In this document: piece after piece, positions 1,610-13,019 of the stretch
How the letters are laid out: each line of letters begins with the position of its first letter
How positions within the stretch are numbered: the stretch's first letter is position 1
IMG/VR virus record: IMGVR_UViG_3300037134_000176
Coordinates: 1 to 26,357 of that record
Source of the DNA: a virus
Direction: 5' to 3' (one strand)
Length of the DNA stretch: 26,357 bases
Position numbers and translations under genes: made by a program
The notes under the pieces: model-generated
Told to the model about the DNA's origin: nothing
Seen by the model: the letters and a program-made list of their open reading frames with translations, nothing else
Databases searched by the model: none

Positions 1610-3415
1610 TTGCAATTGGATCACGTTGAGAAATTCTTCAGTCGTCTTGTGATTCGAGATCGCGACGCGGGAAACTTTCCTAATTTCATTCTTCGTCCCC
1701 AGCAGCAAGAAGTTTTCGATATGGCCAGGGCGCATTTTGCGCGGCGCCGCCGGCTGTATATTATTTTCCTCAAAGCTCGCAGAGTCGGAATTTCTTTACT
1801 CTCTACGGGCCTCGGTCAAGCGCACTGCATTGCGCATCCGGGAGCGCTGGCGCGCTGTGTTGCACAGAAGGCCAATGTCGCCGCCGAGAACTTCAAGACG
1901 GCGTGTGGGTTTTTTAATGATTGTCGGGAGCTTTACCCGAACGCGCCGAAGCCTACCAAGATGATTCTAACTTGGCCACATTCTGACGGCCCGGATTCCA
2001 TATACACACATCACACTGCCGCGACGGTCGAAGGCGCACGCGGTTTGACTTCTAGTTTCTTGCACGCTACCGAGGCTGGATTTTATCCCCAGGCGGGCGT
2101 ATTCACGTCACTGATGAACACACTATCTTCCGATCCGAACAACATAAGTCTAATAGAATCAACAGCTAACGGCATGGAAGGCCCCGGTGAAGCGTACTAC
2201 CAATACTGGGAAGGCGCGGTGTCCGGCGAGAACGAGTTCTTGCCGATATTCCTTCCATGGTGGGGTGACGATTCGTACACGCTCCCCGATGAGTTCGCTC
2301 AAGACGCTCCACGAGATGAATATGAGCGCTTCCTGATGAACGACATCAAGCACTGGAAGACGGGCAAGAAGGTCAGTATTAGCCGGGGCCAGATTGCGTG
2401 GTTTCGCGACACTCTGGCTACCCGGTGTGAGGGAATCATCGAACGGTGGAGGGCTGAGTTCCCAGGGACGCCAGAAGAGGCGTTCATTGCCACTGGAAAT
2501 CCCGCTTTCACTATCGAAGAGATGCAATTTGCTGACAGTTCAGTGGTCAGGATTCCGTGGCAGGGAAGGTGCGTTTTGTCTGCTGATGGCAAGCGTGGGG
2601 AGGTACAAAAAGGGACTGATGGTCCGCTTTGTCTTTATGAGACCCCGCAAAAAGGTCATCACTATTTCATCGGTGTGGATACAGCCCGTGGTGAGGAAAC
2701 CACGATGGCTCCTGGCGATTACAGCGCAATGGTTTGCTGGAATGCTGAGACCGGAAATCTTGCTGCCAGGTATATGTCGCGCGTGAGCCCAGAGGAGCTA
2801 TCCCCGATCGTCGCCGCGTTGGGCTATTACTTCAACGGCGCGATGGTCAACGTCGAGTTGACGGGCAGCTTGGGGTACATCGTGATGAGCACATTGCGCG
2901 ATCGTCTCTACTACCCGACGCAGTATCGTTGGAAGGGTCGTGACGACAAAGCCGATATGTCCAAGCACGGCATGGCCTACGGATTCGAGACTTCGGATCG
3001 ATACCGTCGAATGATGTTTGCGTTGTTTAGGACCGCGTTGCACAACAAGCGTGTTGTGCCCAAGGACAAAATTTTTGTCGAACAAATGAAGAAGTCAAAA
3101 CTGGAAATGGGTTTCCGCTGGAACGTTGCTGTGGGCCACGACGATGTATTAATGTCCGGATTTCTTGGCTGGATAGCACTCGAACAAAACCACCCAAATC
3201 CATGCCAAACGAAGTTGTCAAAGAACGTAATGCTGACGAAGGAAGAACTCGAAATGTCGGGCTTCTCCCCCACCCGAGGCCAAATGCCGGAGTGGTTGCG
3301 TGATCCGAGTGTCACCGGGGCCGGGATGTTACTGACCAGCGGGAACGATCATCTCAGGAAGTTGGAGATATATTCAAAACGGAAACAGAAGATGAACCGA
3401 TTGGAGTTCATATGA
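1610..3415 (+). CDS. terL: Terminase large subunit (packaging ATPase and nuclease)
   Basis: TerL is the motor that pumps DNA through the portal into the prohead and cuts it. The 601-residue product has the two expected domains. The ATPase has a deviant Walker A (LKARRVGIS, residues 54-62), a Walker B ending in the catalytic acid (FLHATEAGF, 150-158) and coupling motif III (IESTANG, 182-188). The RNase H-like nuclease has IGVDTARGE (Asp357), VNVELTGSLG (Glu416) and the double acid in GHDDVLMSG (Asp511/Asp512). Length is normal for the family. There is no ATG or GTG in frame after the nearest upstream stop. TTG at 1610 lies 12 nt from AGGAGG (1592-1597), while an ATT at 1604 sits at the better 6-nt spacing. 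The stop overlaps an ATG at 3412. Confidence 0.95.
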   Translation: MQLDHVEKFFSRLVIRDRDAGNFPNFILRPQQQEVFDMARAHFARRRRLYIIFLKARRVGISLLSTGLGQAHCIAHPGALARCVAQKANVAAENFKTACGFFNDCRELYPNAPKPTKMILTWPHSDGPDSIYTHHTAATVEGARGLTSSFLHATEAGFYPQAGVFTSLMNTLSSDPNNISLIESTANGMEGPGEAYYQYWEGAVSGENEFLPIFLPWWGDDSYTLPDEFAQDAPRDEYERFLMNDIKHWKTGKKVSISRGQIAWFRDTLATRCEGIIERWRAEFPGTPEEAFIATGNPAFTIEEMQFADSSVVRIPWQGRCVLSADGKRGEVQKGTDGPLCLYETPQKGHHYFIGVDTARGEETTMAPGDYSAMVCWNAETGNLAARYMSRVSPEELSPIVAALGYYFNGAMVNVELTGSLGYIVMSTLRDRLYYPTQYRWKGRDDKADMSKHGMAYGFETSDRYRRMMFALFRTALHNKRVVPKDKIFVEQMKKSKLEMGFRWNVAVGHDDVLMSGFLGWIALEQNHPNPCQTKLSKNVMLTKEELEMSGFSPTRGQMPEWLRDPSVTGAGMLLTSGNDHLRKLEIYSKRKQKMNRLEFI

Positions 3416-6216: not shown

Positions 6217-6366
6217 ATGAAGTCCAGTAAAGAGTGCGGTATGAAAGAATCTGACGAGACCCCCGGCTACGAAGCGAAGTCGCATTCGACCGCTTTCCTG
6301 CGCAAGGCTGTGAAGGCTTCTGAGGCGAAGAAGTCAGGCAGGCGCGCGGCAAAGAAACGGGGCTGA
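6217..6366 (+). CDS. 49-residue basic hypothetical protein
   Basis: ATG at 6217 has GGAGG (6206-6210) six bases upstream and begins 14 nt after the previous stop. The product starts MKSSKECGMKESDETPGYEA, continues with a short helix-like stretch (HSTAFLRKAVKASEAKKS) and ends GRRAAKKRG. The same frame is open further upstream, but only inside the preceding gene. Basic tail and short length match its neighbours. No family recognised. Confidence 0.65.
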   Translation: MKSSKECGMKESDETPGYEAKSHSTAFLRKAVKASEAKKSGRRAAKKRG

Positions 6367-6562: not shown

Positions 6563-7159
6563 CTACGAGAGTATTTCTGCAAGGCGTTTTTTGCGGATTG
6601 TTTTGATTTTGGCTCGTCGTGCGGGAATCGTGAGGGCTTCTTCGACGGTCCATCCGAGGTCGAGGCGGGCTTCAATAGTATGGTGGGACAGTTCAACCGT
6701 GCGTGCCCATTCTGCCGCACATTTAGTTTCTCCACGGAACGTAAGTAGGCGGTTACTTTTCTGGTTCTGGTTCTGCTCTCGGGGTGTCGCCCACCGACAG
6801 TTCTCCTTGCAATACCCTAGCTTCCCATCGATCCTGTCGAGGCTTTTTCCTACTGGGCGTTCCCCGAGGTCAGCAAGAAAAGTAACGAACGACTTTCTCC
6901 AAGCTTTCGAGACAGTTACGCCGGCGCCTCCCCACTTAGGGAAATCCGCAGCCTTGGGGTTGCAGCATCTTTGGATCATTGCTTCCCAACTCATATAAGT
7001 GCGGCTCTCGGTTTTGCCGTGGATTATGTGGCCACCCTTGGCGTTGCATGAGCGAGAGCAAAATTTTCCCCCGCCACACTTAACAGCGCACGCGTACACA
7101 TAGAATTCTTTGCCGCAGTAGTTGCAGTGGCGGAGTACACTTGGACCTGGGGGTGTCAT
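6563..7159 (-). CDS. Free-standing HNH homing-type endonuclease with zinc finger
   Basis: The 198-residue product has three parts. Residues 12-38 form a zinc finger (CNYC, CSRSC). Residues 106-129 hold the HNH core of the type SLDRIDGKLGYCKENCRWAT followed by EQ, preceded by FLADLGERPVG, which is usual for this group. Residues 138-180 form a DNA-binding tail (FRGETKCAAEWARTVELSHH, then GWTVEEALTIP) seen in phage HNH proteins. Such enzymes nick or cut phage DNA and spread the locus. It is the only minus-strand gene in the head region. AGGAGG six bases upstream of the ATG (complement near 7166-7171) marks a clear start. No intron or split target gene is visible next to it. Confidence 0.9.
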   Translation of the reverse strand: MTPPGPSVLRHCNYCGKEFYVYACAVKCGGGKFCSRSCNAKGGHIIHGKTESRTYMSWEAMIQRCCNPKAADFPKWGGAGVTVSKAWRKSFVTFLADLGERPVGKSLDRIDGKLGYCKENCRWATPREQNQNQKSNRLLTFRGETKCAAEWARTVELSHHTIEARLDLGWTVEEALTIPARRAKIKTIRKKRLAEILS

Positions 7160-7266: not shown

Positions 7267-9048
7267 ATGGCGAACATTCAATTCATCGGAGCCGCGCGGA
7301 AGTCCCAGAAGCAAGAGAATATCGATCCGAGGTCGCGCCATCTTCAGGATTGGATATCCGCGTCGGATTCCGCCCGCAACAAAGCGTTAGGCGAAAATTT
7401 TTTTCGGGATGCTGAGAGTCTTTACAATTTTCAAGATGCGATGACTCCAGGCCCTGTCTATCGGCCTAGCCTTTCAATCCCGATGCTTCAAAGAATAATG
7501 CTCGAAGAAGCAAATCAAGTTAGTAACCTCTCGCCAAAGATGTACGTTTTCCCGAGCGCTGGCTCCTCCGATCCCTCCTACGCTGCGGCGCGCCAGGCTG
7601 ATCCTGACGATCCTGCCACCCGGCCCACCGCTCCTCGTGATCTTGCTCGCGAGGTTTCTTTACAGGCTCAATGGCAAATCTCGAAGATGAATCTTCATCT
7701 GCTGATGGCGGGGTTGACCGCCCGGTATTGTGGAGCTGGATGGATCGTGGCTGGGTTTGATCCAGATTTGGGCCGAGCCCGCGGCGGCATGTGGGCCAAA
7801 TCGATTGATCCGCGGTTGGTCTTCTTCGATCCTGGCACAGATTACACTTGGAACCCCTCCTACGCTGGCTGGGGAACATGGATGAATTTGGAGGACGTTA
7901 GGCTCAAGTGGCCGGTGACATCGAGGGCGATCAAGCCTCGGCATACATCCGGTGGGTTCCAGCCCTTCTCCGGTGATTCCGGCTACGGAATCGGCCAGCC
8001 GCCGGGGCCGATGAGCACGATGCCCAACTCTCCCGGAAGTAATTCAAAAACCCAGAGCAGCGAATGGCGTGTTTTAGTCCATCACTGCTTCTGTTGGGAT
8101 TACACTCGTGAGACCGTTGAGAAGGACGATGTTCCTGCGACATCCTTGATCGATCCAGAAGTCCGGTTGAAGTATCCCAACGGTCGTTGGTTCATCGATT
8201 GCGAGGGGATTATCCTCCAAGATGGGGATAATCCGTACCCGCGGCGCCGCGACATCAATGCCCCCCGGTTCCCCATCTTCCCGAACTACATATTGCCTCC
8301 CCTCTTCGGTCCCTGGGGCATCCCTGTCACCCGCATGACCGAGAATATGCAGCGTCTCGGGCAGAGGTTCATGTCACAGACCTTCGAGAATGGTCTACGC
8401 ATGAACAACGCCCTATGGGTTATAGAAGAAAATACAGGAATCGATATCGATGGGTTCGGCGGTCTCCCCGGCGAAGTGGTGACAATCAAGCCGGGCTCGA
8501 AGCCTCCCACGCCGATCACGCCTAACGCTATCGGGAACGGAGCATTACAGGCTGTTGACAAACTGTTTTCGATGCAGAATGACGTGCTTGGATTTTCGGC
8601 TTCGCGACAGGGTGACCCCGGCGCCGGGAACGTTTCGACTGACTTGTTCGACAGTGCGGTTTTGCAGTCTTCGGGGCTGTTGCAATTGGCCGGCAGATTT
8701 TTGAGCGAGACGGTGGAGTCAATTGGTACTTTTTATTTCGACTGCATGTGCAAATTTCAAGCGAAATCTAATTTGGCGTATAAAGGTCCCGAGGGAATCA
8801 CCCTTGCTAGTTGGGACGGGATGGTCGATCCTTCAACTTATGATCTGGCACTGGACGACGCTTCAGTCAGGCCTTTGTCCGAGGCCATCGTCAGAAAGAT
8901 CACGCCAAGTTTGATGGAAAAGGGAATTGTCGGGCCGGAGCGTGGGCTGCGAACTTTGGGTTATCCTGATCCTGAAGGAATTGCTCAAGAGCAGCAGACC
9001 CAGCAGGCATTGCAAGCACTAGCTAAAGTCCGATCGGGCAAGAAATAA
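7267..9048 (+). CDS. Portal protein
   Basis: The portal forms the dodecameric ring at one capsid vertex through which DNA passes and on which the terminase and tail assemble. The 593-residue length is typical of short-tailed phage portals. Supporting stretches are RGGMWAKSIDPRLVFFDPG (residues 172-190), GPWGIPVTRMTENMQRLGQR (348-367), a helical stem region (QTFENGLRMNNALWVIEENT, 371-390), and NDVLGFSASRQGDPGAGNVS (438-457) followed by long amphipathic helices (LLQLAGRFLSETVESIGTFY). Residues 230-262 are a Gly/Ser/Pro-rich loop. The ATG at 7267 follows a G-run (GACGGGGG). Position between terL and scaffold agrees. The call is from order and sequence pattern, not a catalytic motif. Confidence 0.88.
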   Translation: MANIQFIGAARKSQKQENIDPRSRHLQDWISASDSARNKALGENFFRDAESLYNFQDAMTPGPVYRPSLSIPMLQRIMLEEANQVSNLSPKMYVFPSAGSSDPSYAAARQADPDDPATRPTAPRDLAREVSLQAQWQISKMNLHLLMAGLTARYCGAGWIVAGFDPDLGRARGGMWAKSIDPRLVFFDPGTDYTWNPSYAGWGTWMNLEDVRLKWPVTSRAIKPRHTSGGFQPFSGDSGYGIGQPPGPMSTMPNSPGSNSKTQSSEWRVLVHHCFCWDYTRETVEKDDVPATSLIDPEVRLKYPNGRWFIDCEGIILQDGDNPYPRRRDINAPRFPIFPNYILPPLFGPWGIPVTRMTENMQRLGQRFMSQTFENGLRMNNALWVIEENTGIDIDGFGGLPGEVVTIKPGSKPPTPITPNAIGNGALQAVDKLFSMQNDVLGFSASRQGDPGAGNVSTDLFDSAVLQSSGLLQLAGRFLSETVESIGTFYFDCMCKFQAKSNLAYKGPEGITLASWDGMVDPSTYDLALDDASVRPLSEAIVRKITPSLMEKGIVGPERGLRTLGYPDPEGIAQEQQTQQALQALAKVRSGKK

Positions 9049-9056
9049 GGAGAAAA

Positions 9057-9311
9057 TTGGAAACTACGAGCAAGCCCGCAAAATCCGAGCCGCCCGCCGA
9101 TCACGCTTCATCCGCCCGCGGTATTCCTCCCCACAACTGGCGCGCGCATTGGCTAACAGTCAATGAGTTCAGCAGGATGATGGGCAGGCGTCCGCAAACA
9201 GTTCACACCTGGTTGCGAAATGGAACTTTGGCCGAATTTGGGATTCCAGTTTGCCAGTATCGCTGGGGCGGGCTGCACTCGGGCCGGACTTTTATATTGA
9301 ACATCTACTGA
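9057..9311 (+). CDS. Small helix-turn-helix (excisionase/MerR-like) DNA-binding protein
   Basis: TTG at 9057 follows TAAGGAG (9046-9052), eight bases after the portal stop, so it is likely co-translated. After about 30 polar residues (TTSKPAKSEPPADHASSA) comes WLTVNEFSRMMGRRPQTVHT, then WLRNGTLAEFGIPV, a winged HTH like those in excisionases: a 'wLT-x-x-E-x-A' helix, a recognition helix with TVxxWxRxGxL, and a short wing (RTFILNIY). Total 84 residues. Proteins of this kind bind DNA or assist recombination. Here it sits inside the virion-gene operon rather than near an integrase, so a regulator of late genes or a packaging-DNA factor is as likely. Confidence 0.7.
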   Translation: METTSKPAKSEPPADHASSARGIPPHNWRAHWLTVNEFSRMMGRRPQTVHTWLRNGTLAEFGIPVCQYRWGGLHSGRTFILNIY

Positions 9312-9438
9312 ACTCCAATTAGCCCCTCGTATTGGTGTTATTACCCCTTTCCCCGCTTCCCTCTCATCTGTTCTATCCTGACTCCAATCGCACTTTCACC
9401 GGCCTCACGGCCCCTGCTCGTGCGGAAGGAGAACCACC

Positions 9439-9495
9439 ATGAAGCATCGCAAGGAAACCAAGAAAGAGCGGCGCGCAGTCGCGCGGCGCAAGTAG
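9439..9495 (+). CDS. 18-residue Lys/Arg-rich micro-peptide
   Basis: AAGGAG (9426-9431) stands eight bases before ATG at 9439, and the frame ends at TAG 9493-9495. The peptide is MKHRKETKKERRAVARRK, with ten Lys/Arg and three acidic residues. It is too short for standard gene callers. I accept it because the ribosome site is strong and because it is one of four similarly short, similarly basic frames with strong sites in the next 700 bases. Role unknown; nucleic-acid binding or virion DNA neutralisation are guesses. The 127 bp before it (9312-9438) are pyrimidine-rich with no gene. Confidence 0.5.
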   Translation: MKHRKETKKERRAVARRK

Positions 9496-9503
9496 TTAAC
9501 CCG

Positions 9504-9519
9504 AGAGGGTTCGCCCTCT
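9504..9519 (+). terminator. UUCG-loop hairpin, possible terminator or processing hairpin
   Basis: AGAGGG-TTCG-CCCTCT makes a perfect 6-bp stem with a stable four-base loop, eight bases after the 9495 stop. It is followed by TTCTGTTG, a weak T-tract. It may be a partial terminator, or it may stabilise the mRNA 3' end. Confidence 0.4.
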
Positions 9520-9582
9520 TCTGTTGACCCTTGCCCCTGTTATCCGTCGCTGCATCAACTTTCCGAAAGGAGCCTGAGTCCC

Positions 9583-9717
9583 ATGGCCGGAACCCCCGCA
9601 ACAAGCTCCCGCGTCGTCAAGGACTTCGAGCAACCCAGGAAGTTCCTGCGCGACATGCGTGCCAAGATCGCTACCCGTGGCGCGAAGACTCGTTCTCGCC
9701 AAGCCAAACGATCCTGA
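9583..9717 (+). CDS. 44-residue basic small protein
   Basis: GAAAGGAG (9565-9572) precedes ATG 9583, and the frame ends at TGA 9715-9717. The product begins MAGTPATSSRVVKDFEQPRK, has an amphipathic middle (KFLRDMRAKIATRG) and ends AKTRSRQAKRS. It has 13 Lys/Arg against three acids. It is the second member of the basic micro-gene row. The following 119 bp (9718-9836) have no convincing start with a ribosome site. Function unknown. Confidence 0.6.
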   Translation: MAGTPATSSRVVKDFEQPRKFLRDMRAKIATRGAKTRSRQAKRS

Positions 9718-9836
9718 CTCATCCCGGAAACGGTGCTGCTGGCCTTCGCGCCCCGTTTTCTTAGCCGCCGAGCACCAGTCTGGACCAACCATCCTCTCTG
9801 GCCTGACTCAGCAACCGGAGCGAAGGAGGTACGCAG

Positions 9837-9896
9837 ATGGCAGCTCGTGGAGGCAGACGATCCACACGGCGTCGGCGCACCGCCGCTCGCAAGTAG
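9837..9896 (+). CDS. 19-residue Arg-rich (protamine-like) micro-peptide
   Basis: A near-ideal AAGGAGGT (9823-9830) stands six bases before ATG 9837; TAG is at 9894-9896. The peptide MAARGGRRSTRRRRTAARK has eight Arg and one Lys in 19 residues and no acid, a composition like protamines or polycation tails. The strength of the ribosome site is the main reason to believe it is translated. Function unknown; DNA condensation in the capsid or capsid-scaffold contact are possible. Confidence 0.5.
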   Translation: MAARGGRRSTRRRRTAARK

Positions 9897-9996
9897 AAGG
9901 GACTCAGGTTCCTTCGTTCGGCGACCGGAGGGGGAACTGGTGGGGGACTAGGCCCTGCCTTCCACGCCGAAAGCGTAGGATGCGCAAGACAGGAAA

Positions 9997-10035
9997 CGGC
10001 AGGGGGAGGGAGCGGTAACCTTCCCCCTCCTGCCG
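9997..10035 (+). other. Strong GC-rich stem-loop between micro-genes
   Basis: CGGC plus AGGGGGAGGG (9997-10010) pairs with CCTTCCCCCT (10019-10028) and GCCG (10032-10035). This gives about 14 pairs with one G-U, a three-base bulge and an 8-base loop. No T-tract follows, so a classical terminator is unlikely. Placed just before the ribosome site at 10042-10048, it may protect or define an mRNA segment. The only frame inside (ATG 9979, 12 codons) is not convincing. Confidence 0.45.
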
Positions 10036-10055
10036 AATCCCAAGGAGGTTTAACC

Positions 10056-10145
10056 ATGAAGTCAGCGAGTGTAGGCCACACGATTCCCAGGATGAAGAGG
10101 GCAGTGGACCGGCGCGTAGGCAAGACGTGGACGGGCCGAAAGTAG
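10056..10145 (+). CDS. 29-residue basic micro-peptide
   Basis: AAGGAGG (10042-10048) stands seven bases before ATG 10056, and the frame ends at TAG 10143-10145. The peptide begins MKSASVGHTIPRMKRAVDRR and ends VGKTWTGRK: nine Lys/Arg, one acid. It is the fourth member of the row of short basic frames with individual strong ribosome sites. Function unknown. Confidence 0.5.
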   Translation: MKSASVGHTIPRMKRAVDRRVGKTWTGRK

Positions 10146-10199
10146 CAGCCGGACAGTTCAACCAGCACGATCAGATACCAGCATCGAAGGAGCAGCAAA

Positions 10200-10954: not shown

Positions 10955-11929
10955 ATGGCCTTGAAAGATATTCTCTCGAACGCCAAGTACGCCGATGACA
11001 TGATTTTGAATCTGCCCGACGGATCGACAGTCAACGTGGGTGAAATCCGTGCCCTGCCCGTGGCTGAGCGCCAGGCTTTGACTGCCCAGATCGAGCAAAG
11101 GCAGTCTACTCTTGGTCAGGCCGAACTGGCCTTTGCGGCCAAGTTCCAGCAGGCTGTGCAGGCCGGCTGGCTGGCGCAGGATGGCAAGATTGTCGCTCCA
11201 GTGCAGCAACAGACTCAGCAAACTACCCAGACTCAACCGACTTCCACTCAGCTTCGTGCCGCGGCCCAGGCCGAGTACGGCCTTTCCGATGACGACCCGC
11301 TCCTTGGCCCGGTCGTGAAGCAAATGAAGGCGGAGTTGGCCCAGCGTGACGCCAAGCTCGCCGAACTCACGACTAAGCTCGACGCCCTGCCCGGCCAGTT
11401 CGATTCGCTCAAGTCCACCCTTACCAACAGCCTCGGCCAGGTGACCGGTGTCGTCAACACATCTGTTGGCCGCTATTTGAACGACCAGTACCAGTCGCAG
11501 TTCGCGCAGGCCACCAAGGATCTTCCCAAGGGTGTAGCCGTGGGTTACGAGGATGCATACAAGTATGCGTCCGAAAAGAACCTGAAGGACAAGGACGGTT
11601 TCCTTCAGATTGATGCCGCGGTGGACCGGCTGACCTGGGACGCGCGCAAGAAGGCCGAACGCGACGAGTGGAAGGCTTCGGAAACGGCCAAGCTGACCAA
11701 GGATATTGAGGAGAGGAACCGCATCTCCACCTTGACTCCTCCTTCGCGCAACCCGTTGAATTCGACGGCCAGGCCTGCCGCGGGTGAATTCGATCCTTAC
11801 AACGAGCGTACCGATGCCAAGGGGAACAAGACCCGGCAGGTCAAGTCCTTCGAGGAAGCGATGTCGGCGGCCATGTCGGACGAAGATGTTTTGAAGTCGG
11901 CACTGGGAAGTTCAGGAATGGTGCAGTAG
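10955..11929 (+). CDS. Probable capsid scaffolding protein
   Basis: Scaffolds guide procapsid assembly and are then released or cleaved; they lie directly before the major capsid gene, as here. The 324-residue product is helical and highly charged. It has a short ordered start (MALKDILSNAKYADDMILNL, PDGSTVNVGEIRAL), a Gln/Thr linker (residues 84-99), a coiled-coil-like stretch (GPVVKQMKAELAQRDAKLAE, residues 118-165) and a charged C-terminal region. This is the usual scaffold plan, but no sequence motif proves it. AAGGAGA precedes the ATG. Confidence 0.75.
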   Translation: MALKDILSNAKYADDMILNLPDGSTVNVGEIRALPVAERQALTAQIEQRQSTLGQAELAFAAKFQQAVQAGWLAQDGKIVAPVQQQTQQTTQTQPTSTQLRAAAQAEYGLSDDDPLLGPVVKQMKAELAQRDAKLAELTTKLDALPGQFDSLKSTLTNSLGQVTGVVNTSVGRYLNDQYQSQFAQATKDLPKGVAVGYEDAYKYASEKNLKDKDGFLQIDAAVDRLTWDARKKAERDEWKASETAKLTKDIEERNRISTLTPPSRNPLNSTARPAAGEFDPYNERTDAKGNKTRQVKSFEEAMSAAMSDEDVLKSALGSSGMVQ

Positions 11930-12032: not shown

Positions 12033-13019
12033 ATGGCGCAATCAGTTGTTGGCCTGGGATTGGCATCGCCGCCGGTACAGCTTTCGAACACCGTTAACGC
12101 GATCTCCCAGAAATTCATCGTTCCAATCCTCGGCGACAACGTCTTCAAACCCTCGCCTGTTTTCTGGGCGTTGACCCGAGAAGGCAAGCGGTTTGGAGCC
12201 GGCGAGCTGATCTTCCCGGAAATCTATCAGGAAGAACTTCCCGGTGGCGCCTATTACGGCGACCAGTTGCTGGATACCTCGGTCGTGGACTCGGTTCAGC
12301 CGGCGAATCAGCAATGGAAGCCATACCGCCAGCCGGTGGTCATTCCGATTACCGACATCATCCTCAACCGTGGTGGGTCGAACAATCTTGACATCATCCG
12401 GGCGAAGTTTCAGACCGCCTCGGGCTCCTTCCTTCAGAAGCTGTCCCGCGCGCTCTGGCACACATCGCCACAGAACACATCGCTCGATGTTGACGACTTG
12501 AACTCGTGGGTGGTTTCGACCACCAACACTATTGCCGGGATCAACCGCGCTTCGTCCGCGAATGCCTGGTGGCTGCCTGCGACCGCGGCTGCCGGCGGCA
12601 GTGCTGCGCTGACTTCGGCTACGGCCGAGCCTGCCTACCAGTCCGTCACCTGGGGCTATGATGAGCCCGATCTGTTCGTGATGAACCGGACTTCCTACGC
12701 GGCCTTCAAGAACAACTTCGTCAGCAACATCCGCTTTGGCCAGGGAATGCAGGACGACGAGGCTTTGCAGGTTGGATTCCGCAACCACTTCCTGTTCAAC
12801 AATGCCGTGACCGTGGCCGACTATTTTGCGACGGCTAACCAGGCGCTGCTATTGAATTCGAAGTACATCTTCCCGGTGTTCCACGAGGCGGATTACTTCA
12901 ACGTCGATCCGTTCCTCAAGCCGAGCAACCAGCGTGTTCTCGTTTCATGCATGTACCTGACCTGGAACTTGAGCTGCATCTCGCCCAGGATGAACGTCGC
13001 GATTACGCCAATCACGTAG
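12033..13019 (+). CDS. Major capsid protein (HK97-fold type expected)
   Basis: The 328-residue product has the features of phage major capsid proteins of this size. It has an N-terminal arm, then GAYYGDQLLDTSVVDSVQPA and QQWKPYRQPVVIPITDIILN (residues about 72-112), resembling the E-loop and spine-helix entry with the strand pattern W-x4-x-(V/I)-P-(I/L)-x2-x-E/D-x-x-x-N-x-G. A helical segment follows (LDIIRAKFQTASGSFLQKLS), then DEPDLFVMNRTSYAAFKN of the A-domain, and a C-terminal beta region. It follows the scaffold and precedes decoration-like genes. CAGGAG stands upstream of the ATG. The preceding 103 bp (11930-12032) contain a TTGACA (11966-11971) without a usable -10. Confidence 0.85.
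   Translation: MAQSVVGLGLASPPVQLSNTVNAISQKFIVPILGDNVFKPSPVFWALTREGKRFGAGELIFPEIYQEELPGGAYYGDQLLDTSVVDSVQPANQQWKPYRQPVVIPITDIILNRGGSNNLDIIRAKFQTASGSFLQKLSRALWHTSPQNTSLDVDDLNSWVVSTTNTIAGINRASSANAWWLPATAAAGGSAALTSATAEPAYQSVTWGYDEPDLFVMNRTSYAAFKNNFVSNIRFGQGMQDDEALQVGFRNHFLFNNAVTVADYFATANQALLLNSKYIFPVFHEADYFNVDPFLKPSNQRVLVSCMYLTWNLSCISPRMNVAITPIT

Follow-up and report, generated by a model that had tools for sequence, protein, structure and literature searches.

Tiny basic peptide genes and conserved ribosome-site pseudoknots in the head operon of uncultured tailed phages

Four tiny basic genes and their conservation

The window analyzed here, the whole 26,357 nucleotides (nt) of IMG/VR record IMGVR_UViG_3300037134_000176, is a 26.4-kilobase (kb) linear contig of an uncultured, podovirus-like virus, and behind its portal gene lies a row of 4 very short, strongly basic peptide genes on the plus strand, here called p18, p44, p19, and p29. 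An initial annotation had described frames of 18, 44, 19, and 29 codons at 9439, 9583, 9837, and 10056, each behind a strong Shine-Dalgarno (SD) sequence, and both observations hold, with spacings of 7, 10, 6, and 6 nt between SD and start. The first gene, p18 (9439..9495), follows AAGGAG (9426-9431) and encodes MKHRKETKKERRAVARRK, a peptide of 12-23 amino acids (aa) in relatives; p44 (9583..9717), also behind AAGGAG (9567..9572), encodes a conserved VVKDF-QPRKFLRDMRAK segment with a basic tail. The core gene of the row, p19 (9837..9896), uses the SD AAGGAGGT (9823-9830) and encodes MAARGGRRSTRRRRTAARK, 11-20 aa long in relatives, and p29 (10056..10145), with the same SD at 10042..10049, encodes MKSASVGHTIPRMKRAVDRRVGKTWTGRK, ranging from 21 to 51 aa and carrying the motif RM-----VDRRVGK in relatives. 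The Lys/Arg counts reported initially (10, 13, 9, and 9) were right, while the acidic residues number 2, 3, 0, and 1, the first peptide having 2 rather than the 3 once given.

Within 9312-10199, no other open reading frame (ORF) of 10-60 aa has both an ATG start and an SD match of 6 nt or more, and these 4 are all basic, whereas 1,000 dinucleotide shuffles of the same interval gave a mean of 0.037 SD-led ORFs and no basic ones. Basic SD-led small ORFs occur at 0.83/kb in the portal-to-capsid interval, against 0.06-0.07/kb in the same-strand flanks on both sides and 0.01/kb on the opposite strand. The shuffles, together with the conservation described below, rule out chance ORFs. Profile searches found no family match for p44 or p29; p18 and p19 are shorter than the 20-residue minimum of the profile tools.

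Conservation was assessed in IMG/VR sequences retrieved by portal and capsid protein, comprising a close set of 43 loci with portal identity above 75% and a wide set of 76 distinct related loci reaching down to 26% portal identity; these loci share kinship, so that counts among them are not independent events. The genes p44, p19, and p18 are present in 43/43 close loci and p29 in at least 42, if GGGAG-type ribosome sites are allowed, with start, SD, and charge kept. The check that the initial annotation had called for, conservation of start, ribosome site, and charge at the 4 places and the ratio of nonsynonymous to synonymous substitution (dN/dS), thus comes out in its favor, with dN/dS of 0.23-0.48. 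Pooled values are 0.29 for p18, 0.48 for p44, 0.36 for p19, and 0.24 for p29 (25 sequences), compared with 0.05 for the portal gene and 0.13 for a 62-aa gene downstream. Because frame, start, SD, and charge are conserved and dN/dS lies below 1, comparative evidence indicates that the tiny frames are conserved, protein-coding genes, as had been claimed for them.

A reading of the frames as noncoding by-products of conserved structured RNA has in its favor that p19 is constrained at synonymous sites too: its synonymous divergence (dS) is just 0.20 against 2.25 for the portal gene, about ten times lower, and some parts of the spacers are better conserved than the ORFs. This explanation is nonetheless scarcely tenable, since length changes in the tiny genes come as whole codons with start, SD, and stop retained, dN/dS is below 1 in all 4 genes, p18 and p29 have diverged at synonymous sites (dS about 1.5) while their peptides are still retained, and comparable genes occur at loci whose DNA cannot otherwise be aligned. 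For p19 itself, codon-sized indels and dN/dS rule out an RNA by-product despite the unusual synonymous constraint. The second half of p19 (CGTCGGCGCACCGCCGCTCGCAAG) is nearly invariant. By these comparisons, the nucleotides of p19 are constrained beyond what the protein needs, and its leader pseudoknot does not account for the excess.

Across the wide set, SD-led peptides that are no longer than 24 aa and contain 40% Lys/Arg or more occur in 68 of 76 distinct loci, the shortest having 11 aa, and carriers number 28/28, 5/5, 3/3, 18/19, and 14/21 in classes of falling portal identity. The typical form is MA...RK-stop: in the 114 ORFs of this type, Arg-Lys forms the end of 92 and Ala stands second in 84. 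Even relatives with unalignable intergenic DNA encode peptides of 11-24 aa behind an SD, among them MARRKRHSKRK, MAHRGGRRRRRRMSRRY, and MARRGRKHRRGGKRK, and one locus scored as lacking a peptide (L095) nevertheless codes for MARRKRHSKRK after a weaker GAGAGGGGGT site.

Two further observations concern the makeup of the row. In L020, a near relative, p18 and p44 are separated by a fifth tiny basic gene (MAKSTKVSRRVARKSAHRY), at +545 to +604 from the portal end. Distant relatives carry an extra basic peptide of 30-48 aa after the 62-aa gene, for example MPKAAKMPFVHRKGVPRQAMPKAPRRTKRW, at +807 (L085), +816 (L087), +955 (L105), and +839 (L106) from the portal end, which may be a moved counterpart of p29.

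Structured RNA at the ribosome sites

The initial annotation took the spacers between these genes as empty space, a view that does not stand, as conserved structured RNA is present there. In the conservation profile, 3 stretches outside ORFs rank among those with the highest nucleotide identity: 9714-9766, the surroundings of the p19 SD, and 9916-9995. In the p19 leader, a hairpin on the plus strand (9726..9760) pairs GGAAACGG (9726-9733) with CCGTTTTC (9753-9760), and its loop carries GCTGGCCTTCGCGCC, of which CCTTCGC (9743-9749) is complementary to GCGAAGG (9820-9826), a segment that overlaps the p19 SD within 9820..9830. The stem appears as more than ten unrelated sequences, each with its own partner (GGGAGTG/CACTCCC, GACAATG/CATTGTC, ATCTCAG/CTGAGAT, TGAGCGA/TCGCTCA, and others). 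Over 19 distinct leaders, 99.2% of the cells of the 14 pairs are paired, a percentage favored by setting the stem arms in their best-pairing register, and double changes are found in 7 of 7 stem pairs. Covariation reaches 0.659, against 0.164 (standard deviation 0.024) in shuffled leaders (0/500 as high) and about 0.1 in slid ones; the 3' stem arm begins 0 or 1 nt past the loop core in every leader, and slid controls fail. All 19 leaders preserve the loop-SD helix, with C-G changed to U-A in L093 and L094 and one G-U pair in L109.

Since there is little variation in the loop-SD helix within these 19 leaders, its stronger support comes from distant relatives that keep the architecture with other loop and SD sequences: TCTTCTCTC/GAGAGGAGG (L098, L101), GGTCTCT/GGAGACC (L119), GGCTCTCC/GGAGAGCC (L182), and TTTGCTCT/GGAGCAAA (L116). 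A combined pseudoknot score over 57 tiny-gene leaders beats shuffles with a z score of 5.4, and z scores for SD complementarity are 5.2 for p19, 6.5 for the distant tiny genes, and 3.7 for p18 (35 leaders), compared with −1.5 for p44, −1.0 for p29, and 0.2 for ordinary genes of the window. This covariation and complementarity show, on comparative grounds, that the p19-type leader folds into an H-type pseudoknot in which loop and SD are paired. Minimum-energy folding of the p19 leader picked up nothing (z 0.03), because pseudoknots are not predictable that way, and would have been misleading by itself. An intrinsic terminator was ruled out for the hairpin because relatives have no U-run, the 3' flanks there being CACTCCCAAAAC, CTGAGATGAGGC, CAGCGGTCCCAA, and the like.

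A second structured RNA (9916..10042, plus strand) precedes p29 and was found in the close group only. Covariation on 37 distinct sequences, with 97% of cells paired and compensatory changes in 10 of 26 pairs, indicates a hairpin P1, TCGGC (9918-9922) with GCCGA (9966-9970), enclosing the invariant loop GGTGGGGGACT, then P2 (9973-9985), AAGACAGG (9986-9993), a variable P3, and TCCCA (10038-10042) adjoining the p29 SD. It contains long invariant unpaired stretches, GGTGGGGGAC (in P1) and AAGACAGGA. A pseudoknot between the loop and TCCC is possible, a pairing outside the reach of covariation because both sides are invariant; alternatively, TCC may close P3 with GGA.

The other 2 leaders are simpler. 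The p18 SD can be masked by a potential hairpin (9382..9431, plus strand) that would pair CUCC (9382-9385) with GGAG (9428-9431) and UCGCAC (9388-9393) with GUGCGG (9420-9425); its fold z score is −2.10, and at least 5 of 6 pairs form in 40/41 leaders, although the pyrimidine tract of this leader could belong to a promoter instead. Sequence and conservation profile also show a small conserved CUUU-CCG-AAAG hairpin on the plus strand ahead of the p44 SD (9567..9572), where there is no excess of distal complementarity to the SD. The suggestion in the initial annotation of a translated leader system was therefore half right, in that conserved structured RNA between the genes lies over or next to the ribosome sites of the peptide genes themselves, but that DNA is untranslated.

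If the leaders were sensors of a small molecule or ion, such as a polyamine, Mg2+, or a metabolite, they would be riboswitches setting peptide output by cell state; the peptides would not be the ligand but may still act in packaging. The S-adenosylmethionine/S-adenosylhomocysteine riboswitches are likewise H-type pseudoknots over the SD (PMC7367207), and the p19-leader loop keeps GCTGG and GCC outside the pairing, much as the second RNA keeps its long single strands invariant. We nonetheless consider riboswitches of this sort unlikely, since distant clades swap the whole loop sequence while keeping the pairing, which is unusual for a fixed aptamer, and both RNA patterns are confined to one phage group. 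In the window and 8 relatives, Rfam gave no match above the gathering threshold and, at a relaxed E-value, chance-level matches only, so a known riboswitch or small RNA is ruled out. Exact patterns of the p19-leader and second RNA matched within IMG/VR only members of this phage group, including a further p19-leader copy in the same setting (L187), and the p19-leader pattern had no match among species genomes.

Alternatively, the fold may be a mask on the SD that needs no ligand and only times or couples translation, by cotranscriptional folding, by opening through ribosomes on the upstream gene, or by protecting the messenger RNA (mRNA), in which case the peptides would be ordinary small virion or assembly proteins. 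Every tiny gene has its own spacer structure, and the genes follow one another in one direction, which makes opening by upstream ribosomes possible. A mask has no need, however, of the long conserved single strands in the second RNA or of conserved flanks in the p19-leader loop, and we regard this explanation as somewhat unlikely.

Setting of the row and its neighbors

The location originally given, between portal and scaffold, is a loose one, as other ORFs share that interval and only position and composition identify the scaffold gene (10955-11929). The portal gene (7267-9048) has a weak match to Pfam SU10_portal (E 1.4e-5, under its cut-off) and is followed directly by an 84-aa, plus-strand ORF with a TTG start (9057-9311), helix-turn-helix-like (Pfam HTH_17, E 1.6e-4, under cut-off) and kept in position in many relatives; the 62-aa ORF (start 10200) and a Gly/Pro-rich 174-aa ORF (start 10404) lie between the row and the scaffold. 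The terminase (1610-3415; PHROG 2) and the major head protein (12033-13019; PHROG 9953, E 6.6e-24) complete the head genes recognized. Alignment of the capsid protein found no relative, host, or prophage among species genomes, and the sole annotated phage that it matched was Myxococcus phage Mx9, at 26% identity. Kuravirus SU10, with weak portal similarity, and Mx9 share the order portal, scaffold, capsid, but SU10 has a single 79-aa gene between portal and scaffold and no space for a row of tiny genes, and the portal-capsid interval of Mx9 yielded no small basic ORF of this sort.

This setting bears on whether the peptides might act on the host, by binding its RNA, DNA, or ribosome or by mimicking small basic ribosomal proteins, their place in the head operon being incidental. 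Their composition does resemble that of small basic ribosomal proteins, whose genes are the textbook example of autoregulation through leaders. We think a host target very unlikely, though, as the portal-to-capsid position is kept in all loci examined, down to 26% portal identity, and the absence of a family match for p44 and p29 offers such a target no support.

Several other ORFs were noted around the row. Upstream of the portal gene lies a basic 49-aa ORF with an SD (6217-6366, plus strand; MKSSKECGMKESDETPGYEAKSHSTAFLRKAVKASEAKKSGRRAAKKRG) and without a family match. In the terminase-portal gap, a 198-aa ORF on the opposite strand (6563-7159) resembles, on visual inspection, a free-standing homing endonuclease; Pfam gave no match for it at E values up to 1. 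Endonuclease-like ORFs also stand among the tiny genes of L116 (+964 to +1395 from the portal end) and in the portal-to-capsid intervals of L099 and L107, those of L116 and L099 showing, by eye, a LAGLIDADG-like AAFIDGEGCI. The portal-to-capsid interval seems to take up mobile elements.

A possible self-limiting peptide module

We tentatively read these genes as encoding nucleic-acid-binding peptides for head assembly or packaging that are translationally gated and probably limit their own synthesis. The head operon would contain a conserved module of up to 4 tiny cationic peptide genes whose ribosome sites are strong but masked, with the folded leader holding the ribosome off, as the masking suggests. 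The peptides would bind nucleic acid by charge, because Lys/Arg content and length class are kept while the sequence drifts. Once a peptide outnumbers its target (DNA, RNA, or procapsid), the surplus would favor the closed leader, the peptide thereby limiting its own synthesis as T4 gp32 and ribosomal protein S15 do, and the peptides would serve head assembly, for example, as local counter-charge or nucleation factors at the portal, the scaffold, or the incoming DNA.

We favor the autogenous step by analogy, since leader pseudoknots with nucleic-acid-binding products have precedents in T4 gene 32 and rpsO (PMC3014915). The gene 32 operator of T4, T2, and RB69 likewise combines a phage mRNA, an H-type leader pseudoknot, translational control, and a product that binds nucleic acid, as we suppose for the peptides here. 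In T4, that pseudoknot precedes the start by about 67 nt, and gp32, nucleated there, binds cooperatively over an A+U-rich ribosome site (PMC3014915), whereas the p19 pseudoknot takes in the SD itself, and the segment between it and the start, GCGAAGGAGGTACGC, is G+C-rich rather than an A+U-rich unstructured tract. The product also differs, being 11-20 aa from a head operon rather than a large single-stranded DNA (ssDNA)-binding protein, and its binding to its own leader is conjectural. The rpsO/S15 pseudoknot and similar ribosomal protein operators resemble p19 in placing a pseudoknot ahead of a small basic protein that binds nucleic acid, putatively so here; p19, however, lies in a phage head operon and encodes a far smaller protein, and mimicry of ribosomal RNA is not part of the case.

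Several points weigh against this reading. The p44 and p29 leaders have no excess complementarity to the SD, 7 loci among the most distant 21 have no peptide that satisfies the set criteria, and the cultured comparators Mx9 and SU10 lack a tiny-gene row. Repression, moreover, is read from masking, and an SD pseudoknot could respond to another ligand, so that autogenous gating has its main rivals in a gate that senses a ligand and in a simple mask.

As to what gated peptides might do, the initial annotation had proposed protamine-like packing cofactors, capsid cement, or scaffold partners, all compatible with the operon position. The peptides are very short, strongly basic, and encoded within an assembly gene cluster, like protamine- or microvirus J-like packaging peptides. 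The Microviridae proteins J and VP8 (phiX174, alpha3, SpV4) are likewise very small, highly basic products of phage assembly genes, SpV4 VP8 being a short protein with an isoelectric point of 12.9 inside the capsid (PMC11281519). Microviruses, in contrast, have ssDNA, T=1 capsids, and no packaging ATPase motor, while the phages considered here are double-stranded DNA (dsDNA) tailed phages with a terminase, with several putative packaging peptides per genome, of which p44 and p29 have no sequence match to J or VP8. Bulk neutralization of a 55-78 kb genome is unlikely because, at about +9 per peptide, the copies required would exceed ten thousand. Viruses whose capsid charge tracks genome size form a cluster from which phages with packaging motors stand apart (PMC7096446), and since this too speaks against a bulk protamine role, we prefer a local one, at the portal, the scaffold, the DNA end, or early packaging. 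In its fullest form, the proposal describes a new head-operon system, in which cationic peptides of as few as 11 residues are metered by self-sensing pseudoknot gates and, in a dsDNA tailed phage that packages by motor, act as cofactors of a protamine-like or nucleating kind; this is possible, if doubtful.

Metagenomic surveys have reported more than 2 million small phage genes (PMC11323111), and the genes described here resemble those families in being conserved short ORFs without an assigned function. They differ in standing in a fixed row with covarying control RNA and, at 11-19 aa, in falling under the usual gene-calling limits. A large group of uncultured tailed phages carries in its head operon a row of tiny cationic peptide genes overlooked by ordinary gene finders, and conserved ribosome sites and covarying control RNA make genes of 11-19 codons recognizable as real in a class that default gene calling drops. 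The 2 RNA structures are absent from Rfam and offer a testable case of pseudoknot gating in phages. If the peptides were found in procapsids or virions, this would raise the question of protamine-like helpers in some motor-packaging phages, and if a metered, self-sensing peptide system proved true, it would add a further viral pseudoknot autoregulation after T4-type gene 32, with genes among the smallest functional ones known.
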